NCBI RefSeq assembly: GCF_000004825.1
Contig: NW_008805076.1
Span: forward strand, 744,001-808,000
Length of the DNA: 64,000 nucleotides
DNA from: Heterostelium album PN500
Taxonomy: Eukaryota; Evosea; Eumycetozoa; Acytosteliales; Acytosteliaceae
Reading direction: 5' to 3'
In this document: positions 38,225 to 48,106 of the stretch, piece after piece
How positions within the stretch are numbered: position 1 is the stretch's first letter
Layout: each line of letters opens with the position of its first letter
The notes under the pieces: generated by a model
What the model was told of the DNA's origin: nothing
What the model saw: the letters and a program-made list of their open reading frames with translations, nothing else
Databases searched by the model: none
Made by a program: the position numbers and the translations under genes

Positions 38225-39175
38225 ATAATTTATATTTTCATCTTTTAAAAAACATAATTATGACAAAACTTTTTTTTTTTAATTTTTCCGCCGCATATAA
38301 TTTTTTTGGAAAAATCAAAGAAAAATAACCATAAACATTGGGATCTAATAATTCAATATTATTTTTAAAGGGTAATTCCATATATTTTTAACAAGATCTC
38401 TTCACAGCAATCATCAAAACAATTTAAAGGTCAAATTAACAAAAAGAGATCTGTCCACTTTATTTTTTTTTAAAATTCCCCCGCTACCGGAACCTATAAA
38501 AAACTGATGTCCTAAGAACCCACGGGCAATACATTGACACCAACTCGTGAGGTGATAAAAACACCTCCTTAGTGCAAAGGACCTAAAAAAAACAAAAAAA
38601 ATTTAAAAAAAAAAAAAAAAAAACTTAAAAACAACCTACAAAACCAACTTTTTCCTATCTATGCTGGTGACCATTAGGTTGTAATTCAGCAGGTGTTCAT
38701 TCCTCTCAAGGTGATTATTTTTATTCAATAGATAATGATTGTTGATTGGGAGTGCATAAAAATTTTTTAATTTTTGGTCAAAGATATGTACTTCGAAGTT
38801 CAAAATAGTTAGTAATTTAACAAGATCTGATATAACCAATATATTATTTTTCAAAAAAAAAAAAGTTTGTGGATATTAAAATAATTAATAGATCAAAAAA
38901 CAAGCTGACTCACCAAAAAAAAAAAATAAACAGACACCCCCTTTTCCAAATTTCAAAGAGATTTATTTTATTGTTGACAGAATTCTAACGACTCAGATTA
39001 TTCATTCTTCTTTTTTTCAATATTTCTCAAGCTTAAGAATATTATTACTTTTTAAAAATAGATTATTATAAAATCATAAACTTTTATTATTATTTTTTTT
39101 ATAGTTTTTTATTTATTTATCTATAGTCTTTTTTTACACTTTTACTTTATCATATTTTATATTTAATTAATTTAA
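38225..39175. other. Spacer with an unusual GC-rich island and decayed ORF
   Basis: Holds the GC-rich island 38472-38587 (see repeat entry) and, on the minus strand at 38636-38854, a 72-codon ORF whose translation looks protein-like (NFEVHIFDQKL, NHLERNEHLLNYN). A pyrimidine-rich AG separates the two on the minus strand. Both look like parts of one old element or gene remnant; the flanks are ordinary AT-rich DNA. An inverted pair AGATCTC/GAGATCT lies at about 38395-38450. Confidence 0.35.
38472..38587 (-). repeat. GC-rich island, possible dispersed dictyostelid repeat
   Basis: About 115 bases of near-balanced composition inside DNA that is otherwise mostly A and T. On the minus strand one frame is fully open and reads CFYHLTSWCQ...FLGHQFFIGSG. 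From memory I believe this peptide recurs in short hypothetical proteins of dictyostelids, which would make it a dispersed repeat; I cannot confirm this here. On the plus strand it folds locally (AGGTG/CACCT hairpin; GTCCT/AGGAC closing pair) and includes CCTTAGTGCAA, two mismatches from the 11-nt motif I recall for class I RNAs. Confidence 0.35.
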
Positions 39176-45836: not shown

Positions 45837-48106
45837 ATGGCATCAATCTTTCAATTTTCAAAAGATGGCAACAAAGAGGAGATTGTTAAGCTACTGAAAG
45901 AGAATTCAAGAGAGCTTCTATTTTTGAAGGATGCATACGAGCAAACTCCTCTACATATAGCAAGCTTCGAAGGTCACACAGAGATCGTAGCCATCTTCAT
46001 AAAGAAAGGTTCGAAATTGGATGTTCAAGATAAGAGTGGATGGACACCATTACATTGTGCTGCAAGGTAAGTGTTACATGTTATTCATATGAAACAAACA
46101 CCGTCAATCGATCTATTCAAATTCTTACCAATCTATTTGTTTGTTTGCTTATTATTCTTATTTTATCTCAAAAAAAAAAAAAAAAAAGTGCTGGAAATTT
46201 CAAAGTATGTGAAGCTTTGATATCGAAAGATCCAGCGTTGGCATCGGTTCATGCGAATGATGGTACTACACCATTCCATTATATAGTTAGAAAGTGGGAT
46301 CCTGTTATCACACCAAAGCTACTGGCGATGATCGTCAAGCACAATCCTGCCATTGTAAATATTGCCGCCGAGAATCTTGAGACACCACTCCACAACGCCT
46401 GTCTCAAGAACTGTATCAACTGTATTCAATTCCTATTGCAACATAATGCCGATATCAATAGACGTTCAAAGTAAGTAGAGACTGAATGTTGTTCATTACA
46501 TAATTACTTGTCTTTCCAGTTTAATATTAATCGCTACTACTTTTTTATTTCCGACGATTCGATTTACTTTTTTTTTTTTTGTCACTTTAGGTCAGGAGAT
46601 ACATGTTTAACATTTGCAATTAGAGCAGGAAATAAGAATGTTGTAAAATTATTATTGGAGCATGGTGTTGATAATAGTAGCTATGATAGTGCATATCAGA
46701 TTGCAAGCGAACAGCGAATGGACGATGTCAAAACGATGATCCAACAGTGTCAGCAATTCCTCAAGATCAGAAGTAACCATTCAAAGATATATAAGAAAGG
46801 TTCTCTCAATAGATTACAGGGCAAACTAAAAGGTTGGAAGAAGAACTGGGCTGTACTAGATGGTGATAGAATTAGAATATATCAATCTGAAGATGTATGT
46901 ATTATCGATCTATTATGATCTATTGTGATCTATCTGCTGACTAACTAATTATTAATAATTATTGTCTATTATCTATCTATTATCTATTACAGGATTGTGA
47001 TCAACATCAATTGGAGATAACATTGAAAGAGATTGAAAAGATAGCAACAACAGAAGAATATCCAAGTTTTGCACATTCATTTGCAATTACCATTAAAGAT
47101 AATCCAAACAAAGTTATTTTGGCGGCAGACGACAAGGTATCGATGGCCAAGTGGATATTAGCAATTGATGGATTGAAATATAAATTCTTTGATTCTTGTC
47201 TCAATCAATTCTTAAAGGTAAATATCAAGTTATTATCTATATCTTTTCTATCTTTATCAAGTTTGTGATACACACACATATATATATATATATCATACAC
47301 ACATTATTGGAAGATAATCAGAAGGTGTTATTGTCAAAGCTCTAAATAATAGTACCGATACGATCTTCCTAAATTAAAAGATTAGCATTTAAAATCAGTT
47401 TGCGTCAATTATTTAAGCATGTAATTTGATGAAAGGAGGTGCTTACAAACCAATTGTTATCATACATAAATTAATTATATATTCATCATTCAATATCATA
47501 CATTACATCTATATTTATATTTAAAGACTGTGTGTGTAACATTAAAACTAATATAATTTATTTATTTAATGAATCATTCAATTGTAGAAAACATTATTAC
47601 ATATTGCATATAAAGAAAGTTATAAAGGTGGAATTATAAAGTCATCGTTTGAGGAGGAGTGGACATATAGCAGTGATGGTATTCTTTTGTGTACAGAGGC
47701 TGGTTGGAATACAGAGGGCGGTGCTAGTTCTATGACCTATTTGTGGGACGGCCAGTGGCTGATGCCTGCGCAAAACACACATAATCTGGGCTGGGGCAAG
47801 TTCAACGGATTCATTTTCGAGTGGCAACTGGGCGAGCTTGGCGAAGAAGGCACCAAGCTGAGCGAGTACTACTGGGAGGAGATCGAGCGTGAATATCTTA
47901 CGACCGATTCCACCATGGATTGGAAATGGACACGACACTTTTTAACACTGAAACAGGGCGCTGGTGAGTGGATCGTCGAAGGTGAAGTACCAGAGCCCGT
48001 TGTATTCTTCCTCTCACTACTGCGTTACAGTCGACTCGGTTCATCATCGAAAAAGGAATCCGATCAAGCTGTAGTAACAAGTAGTGATCCTGTGAAACAA
48101 GAATAA
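45837..48106 (+). CDS. Ankyrin-repeat and PH-domain protein
   Basis: Exons 45837-46066, 46189-46470, 46591-46894, 46993-47217 and 47588-48106 join in frame to 519 residues. Ankyrin repeats fill about 1-215 (QTPLHIASFEGH, GWTPLHCAA, ETPLHNACLKN, TCLTFAIRAGNK). A PH domain follows (KKGSLNRLQGKLKGWKKNWAVLDGDRIRIYQ onward to KWILAIDGLKY, split by an intron), and the last exon encodes a C-terminal region with several Trp-Gly and Trp-x-W motifs (YLWDGQWLMP, GWGKFNGFIFEW) of unknown fold. Likely a membrane-phosphoinositide-linked scaffold; the partner is unknown. The fourth intron is 370 nt, three or more times the others, and carries the snoRNA candidate at 47309-47450. Confidence 0.82.
47309..47450 (+). 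ncRNA. Candidate intronic H/ACA snoRNA
   Basis: Lies in intron 4 (47218-47587) of the ankyrin-PH gene, same strand. Hairpin 1: lower stem GGAAGAT (47309-47315) with ATCTTCC (47363-47369); upper stem GTGTTATT (47325-47332) with AATAGTAC (47348-47355); the internal loop leaves AATCAGAAG and CGATACG as guide strands. The hinge AAATTA (47371-47376) fits the H box ANANNA and starts 15 nt below the pocket top. Hairpin 2: lower stem AGCATT (47384-47389) with GGTGCT (47438-47443); upper stem 47394-47405 with 47419-47430, one mismatch. ACA is at 47445-47447, 14 nt below the second pocket, with three bases after it. These features and spacings are those of H/ACA pseudouridylation guides. No target was searched. 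Confidence 0.62.

Follow-up and report, generated by a model that had tools for sequence, protein, structure and literature searches.

We propose that the fourth intron of a dictyostelid gene for an ankyrin-repeat and PH domain protein carries a box H/ACA RNA whose 5' pocket pairs with the branch-site region of U2 snRNA and guides pseudouridylation of U42, a reading that we consider probable from the sequence evidence. The architecture of the RNA, its pairing to the species' own U2 and its in-register match to known guides are observed. For its expression, its processing, the enzyme and the modification itself we infer the following course. Host intron 4 would carry a guide RNA of the box H/ACA type, which would most likely be released by trimming of the spliced intron; its 5' pocket would base-pair with the branch-site recognition region (GUAUC-U42-G-UUCU) and, once paired, would present U42 to a dyskerin-type pseudouridine synthase, and the resulting pseudouridine would correspond to vertebrate Psi41 and yeast Psi42. 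The features, numbered along the window (the whole 64-kb stretch of DNA that was analysed), are as follows.

45837 to 48105, plus strand: coding span of the host gene, an ankyrin-repeat and PH domain protein of 519 aa (spliced translation; end taken from the spliced frame).
47218 to 47587, plus strand: host intron 4, GT...AG, 370 nt (spliced frame; in-frame stops inside).
47309 to 47450, plus strand: candidate box H/ACA guide RNA, 142 nt (descriptor scan; predicted ends, from the hairpin base and from ACA plus three bases).
47309 to 47369, plus strand: domain 1, a hairpin with a predicted pseudouridylation pocket (descriptor scan).
47320 to 47323, plus strand: putative guide element AGAA, pairing with UUCU 3' of the U2 target (4 Watson-Crick bp with the species' own U2).
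47357 to 47361, plus strand: putative guide element GAUAC, pairing with GUAUC 5' of the U2 target (5 Watson-Crick bp with the species' own U2).
47371 to 47376, plus strand: box H (ANANNA), AAATTA, 14 nt below pocket 1.
47384 to 47443, plus strand: domain 2, a hairpin with a pocket (descriptor scan).
47445 to 47447, plus strand: box ACA, 14 nt below pocket 2, with three bases left to the proposed 3' end.

The host protein matches the Pfam families Ank_2 (E 7.6e-35) and PH (E 3e-13), and splicing out all four introns (122, 120, 98 and 370 nt) yields a single 519-aa frame. This agrees with an earlier note on this DNA, made from the letters alone, which had set the 370 nt of the host intron against about 100-120 nt in the others. 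The same note had named retention of the sequence in an exon as a finding that would count against the candidate; read in frame, intron 4 contains stops, and the candidate RNA withstands this check. GC content is 0.31 in the candidate RNA, compared with 0.21 and 0.18 in the flanking parts of intron 4, and a DNA search of the genome found its sequence as a single copy.

We scanned intron 4 with an H/ACA descriptor (hairpin, ANANNA, hairpin, ACA, with 13-16 nt from pocket to box), which found one arrangement on the plus strand, with a total energy of -25.9 kcal/mol, and none on the minus strand. Domain 1 consists of a lower stem of 7 bp (47309-47315/47363-47369), pocket strands of 8 and 6 nt (47316-47323 and 47357-47362) and an upper stem of 11 bp (47324-47334/47346-47356), while domain 2 has a lower stem of 7 bp, pocket strands of 3 and 6 nt and 14 nt from pocket to ACA. 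The candidate thus shows the two pocketed hairpins, the ANANNA hinge and the ACA three bases from the predicted 3' end that characterise box H/ACA RNAs, and in both domains the target position lies 14 nt from the box, within the usual spacing of about 14-16 nt. Free folding of 47300-47455, a check that the earlier note had suggested, likewise yields a pair of hairpins that contain internal loops (-27.6 kcal/mol). The hairpin-H-hairpin-ACA order with internal-loop pockets claimed in the note is borne out by both the fold and the scan, and the scan also places the AAATTA hinge and the ACA at the guide-like distances that it described. Its broader suggestion that the long intron contains an unannotated H/ACA guide is supported by this architecture, by the pairing to the species' own U2 and by weak Rfam matches. 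We regard a real, unannotated intronic H/ACA RNA as likely. The species' own U6 shares a decamer with the candidate, AAGATTAGCA (window 47377-47388, where domain 2 begins); we take this as a coincidence, probably due to chance.

The energy of the free fold does not stand out (z -1.32; 21 of 200 shuffles match or better it), and at this z value we rejected folding energy alone as proof of an RNA gene. With the descriptor, a single one of 10,000 dinucleotide shuffles of intron 4 reached -25.9 kcal/mol, and 1148 of the 10,000 gave a match of any energy. A background sample of 224 kb, made up of the window and 16 pieces of the same genome of 10 kb each and searched on both strands, contained 84 descriptor matches, 82 of them distinct, and 10 of these, including the candidate RNA, reach -25.9 kcal/mol. 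The other nine have a GC content of 0.38-0.52, compared with 0.31 in the candidate RNA, which is lowest in energy among the 48 matches with GC up to 0.36 (the next lies at -21.2). The candidate feature is real, and from its architecture an RNA gene is plausible. As proof of one we rejected architecture taken alone, because 10 of the 84 background matches reach this energy. The same background frequency lends some weight to chance, that is, to an intron stretch that folds like an H/ACA RNA and has GAUAC beside a stem by accident. Descriptor matches at this energy are not rare genome-wide, the z value is modest, the Rfam matches described below are sub-threshold, and many chance pockets pair with U2 once G-U pairs are allowed. 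We nevertheless consider this origin distinctly unlikely, in view of the rarity of such matches among shuffles of this AT-rich intron, the lowest energy among low-GC matches, the local rise in GC, and the agreement of pocket and Rfam evidence combined.

The pairing of pocket 1 gives the candidate guide its most likely target, U2 snRNA at U42. The pocket forms 5 + 4 Watson-Crick base pairs around U42 of the species' own U2 (GUAUC-UG-UUCU), at one place only in U2, and GUGUAGUAUCUGUUCUAGAAAGCUUAAUCUC is present in all eight U2 copies found in the genome, the target U being position 42 of the U2 match in six copies and position 45 in two. All eight copies offer these nine pairs, more than the 8 bp that a U2-Psi41/42 guide would need at the U2 site; the available part of a review sets the minimum for guide-target pairing at eight base pairs (PMC7277114). 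U42 of this U2 corresponds to human Psi41 and yeast Psi42. Among the copies of U1, U4, U5 and U6 tried, pocket 1 found no Watson-Crick match of at least 3 bp per side. Comparing the pockets with snRNAs had been proposed in the earlier note, which read the target of pocket 1 as CGUAUCG-UN-CUUCUGAUU and named no RNA that contains it. That form is off by one base pair: its register, which we rejected, leaves the upper-stem pair G47324-C47356 open and misses U2. With G47324-C47356 closed, the target form becomes GUAUC-UN-UUCU, which meets U2. Two U2 variants (L008 and L009, G000:C13) are altered at the 5' end and in the 3' half but identical in the branch-site region.

Two controls bear on how readily such pairing arises. 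When the 22 pocket letters were shuffled and at least 9 bp with at least 4 per side were required, 210 of 200,000 shuffled pockets paired anywhere in U2, 8 of 200,000 at U42, and 162 of 50,000 in any of five snRNAs. The 84 background matches supply 168 pockets; of these, the candidate's alone reaches 8 or more Watson-Crick bp to U2, and two others reach 7. With G-U pairs allowed, 16 of the 168, the candidate included, reach at least 8 bp to U2, and three of the others pair at U42, from matches with weak descriptor energies (-8.6 to -10.8). The background-pocket control is clean for Watson-Crick pairs only, and weaker with G-U pairs. The 5' arm of pocket 1 pairs over 4 bp only: the guide would fit UUCUGA, and the species' own U2 has UUCUAG. 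The base after AGAA is C, opposite an A in the own U2, and the species' UUCUU-to-UUCUA change has thus not been matched by the guide.

No Rfam model matches the 64-kb window at its gathering threshold. In a relaxed scan of 156 bases, snoR104 (30.1 bits) and SCARNA4 (26.8 bits) lead with E 0.0012 each, followed by SNORA47 (16.9 bits, E 0.11) and PsiU2-38.40.42 (16.5 bits, E 0.71); in a relaxed scan of 401 bases, snoR104 and SCARNA4 are again the best two (E 0.0031 each), and SNORA47 and PsiU2-38.40.42, which appear in the narrowest scan only, are absent. Across the whole window, two matches were found up to E 3, a Class I RNA and snoR104 at the candidate locus (E 0.49), with SCARNA4 not among them. 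The gathering scores are 40 bits for snoR104, 60 for SCARNA4 and 88 for PsiU2-38.40.42, and the candidate lies below every one; with 30.1 of 40 bits for snoR104 (RF01220) and 26.8 of 60 bits for SCARNA4 (RF00423), we describe it as working like these RNAs but do not file it as a member of either family. A genome search with snoR104 places the candidate locus first (30.1 bits, E 0.06), ahead of the next match at 26.0 bits; the E values that follow are 0.46 and 2.7. The genome search with SCARNA4, in which 43 of 1175 first-look candidates were scored, listed only another locus, at 22.8 bits, and not the candidate, which scores above it (26.8 bits) when scanned directly and either fell outside those 43 or did not pass. 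By eye, no H/ACA layout was apparent in two other genome matches to SCARNA4 or snoR104 (L010 and L012). In the corresponding searches of prokaryote controls, each model gave weak matches in 8 of 14 genomes, none over the cut-off.

The Rfam alignments cover domain 1 only, and within it they agree with the pocket in register. Three of the four best matches (snoR104, SCARNA4 and PsiU2-38.40.42) have a GAUAC pocket at the same position as the candidate, where GAUAC forms the 3' arm directly after the upper stem, and in SCARNA4, PsiU2-38.40.42 and the candidate AGAA ends the 5' arm directly before the upper stem. As the three GAUAC matches share one motif, they cannot be counted as evidence separate from the pocket match. 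Beyond the guide elements, the snoR104 consensus agrees with the candidate in 16 of 17 bases over CCGAUACnAUCUUCCUA, lower-stem strand included, and the two have the non-guiding lower-stem strand AUCUUCCUA in common. As read from the alignments, lower-stem pair 2 is C-G in the fly RNA and G-C in both the vertebrate RNA and the candidate, pair 4 is G-C in fly and vertebrate and A-U in the candidate, and pair 5 is C-G in fly, g-c in vertebrate and G-C in the candidate. The candidate therefore differs on both sides of the stem, with pairing kept, at pairs 2, 4 and 5 from the fly RNA and at pair 4 from SCARNA4.

These likenesses can be set beside what is reported of the RNAs concerned. SCARNA4 (ACA26), the guide of U2 Psi41 and Psi39 in vertebrates, resembles candidate domain 1 in its GG..GA lower stem, its AGAA and GAUAC arms and the place of box H, and its 5' domain holds the pocket for U2 position 41, according to the accessible part of PMC8522698; the portion of PMC7960923 available to us assigns human U2 Psi41 and Psi39 to ACA26. 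The candidate departs from SCARNA4 in its domain 2, which is not alignable and by inspection is not a Psi39 pocket, and in having no CAB-like TGAG. snoR104, an H/ACA RNA known from plants by the literature, is the model for which the candidate is the top locus genome-wide, but the match stays below the gathering score and domain 2 is not alignable; a target of snoR104 itself was not found in the literature searched. The Drosophila scaRNA PsiU2-38.40.42 (RF02667) shares AGAA and GAUAC at the same pocket positions, with the two-sided lower-stem changes already described, but its match is the weakest of the three. In yeast, snR81 guides the equivalent position, Psi42, and acts on 25S rRNA as well (PMC7960923 and PMC8522698, as far as their accessible parts go). 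We liken snR81 to the predicted function of the candidate by target, not by sequence: the U2 position is the same, and one RNA serves two kinds of target.

The second pocket is where a role in rRNA modification enters. Against the 13 snRNA copies tried, pocket 2 found no Watson-Crick match exceeding 6 bp; a U4-like sequence (L038, below the U4 gathering score) pairs 3 + 8 with G-U pairs in one register, which we distrust, and none of the snRNA copies tried is a convincing target for pocket 2. The 3' arm of this pocket is GAAAGGA and the 5' arm lies around AAA, for a predicted target form near CCUUUC-UN-UUU. By analogy with yeast snR81, pocket 2 may serve another target, perhaps in rRNA. Searches of the genome assembly for 5.8S and for a 15-base sarcin-ricin pattern each returned 0 matches; rDNA was not found in the assembly, so the comparison of pockets covered snRNAs. 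It is also conceivable that the RNA is a genuine H/ACA RNA with both pockets directed at rRNA or other sites and that its U2 complementarity is incidental, as most H/ACA guides serve rRNA and the pairing to U2 amounts to 9 bp only, with 4 on one arm. We consider this unlikely, given the in-register agreement with the fly U2 guide and with the U2-41-directed 5' domain of SCARNA4, and the few shuffled pockets that match U42 equally well (8 of 200,000).

The candidate U2 guide most likely has no promoter of its own. We observed CCATAA 58-66 nt upstream of 15 of the 21 snRNA loci found in the genome, and we read it as the two-C DUSE reported for P. pallidum in the available text of PMC7919456. A DUSE-like element about 60 nt ahead would mark an independently transcribed dictyostelid ncRNA; CCATAA is absent from 46901-47600, and an snRNA-type promoter for the candidate RNA was rejected. 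Since the element is missing from this region, the candidate RNA would most likely be released from the spliced host intron. Two other loci were seen along the way. The Class I RNA match (RF01414, window 38395-38453, plus strand; 38.2 bits against a gathering score of 41.5, E 0.0011 for the window) has AACCATAAA about 60 nt upstream and is probably a real Class I RNA gene. The family is a dictyostelid one, and this match, along with the earlier note's mention of dictyostelids, is our ground for placing the species among them. A U6-like gene (L015, G000:C27:1433655-1433795, minus strand) has about 35 extra bases between its ACAGA and GAAGATTAGC parts, which may be an insertion, an intron or a sign of a pseudogene.

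The CAB box of scaRNAs (Cajal-body RNAs) is UGAG in a hairpin loop, and TGAG is absent from 47309-47450. Together with the 5' arm that pairs over 4 bp only and has not kept up with the species' own U2 (UUCUAG), this would also suit a decayed or non-guiding H/ACA relative, in which domain 1 derives from a U2 guide and the U2 modification has been lost. Against such decay stand the boxes, the spacing and both stems, all intact here, and the 9 bp, which exceed the stated minimum of 8, and we give it very little credence.

If the candidate is a working U2 guide, its mechanism would itself be biologically ordinary. Guides for the equivalent U2 letter are known in animals and yeast. In D. discoideum, 17 C/D and one H/ACA snoRNA were cloned earlier, according to the accessible part of PMC8817022, which places all but one of its own box C/D snoRNAs between genes, whereas the candidate, from the same group of organisms, is intronic and of the H/ACA type. 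A relative was annotated using Rfam models filtered to Amoebozoa, as stated in the part of PMC11193728 available, and such annotation would miss a guide like the candidate RNA. In a literature search made largely without subscription papers, we found no report of a U2 guide in any amoeba.

We tentatively suggest that the candidate and the vertebrate, fly and plant-type RNAs may come from one ancestral U2 branch-site guide that predated the split of plants, animals and amoebae, because even the non-guiding lower-stem strand AUCUUCCUA matches snoR104. With equal caution, and taking its parts together, this suggestion would add that the dictyostelid version is intronic, is without a CAB box and has its U2 domain joined to a second pocket for another RNA. 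The search itself indicates that guides missed by annotation can be recovered when sub-threshold Rfam matches are read together with the target sequence of the organism itself. If our reading is true, a dictyostelid gains a guide RNA for its spliceosome, in a group from which few H/ACA RNAs are known, and guided pseudouridylation of the U2 branch-site region extends to Amoebozoa, which would allow us to ask whether the guide predates the split of plants, animals and amoebae.
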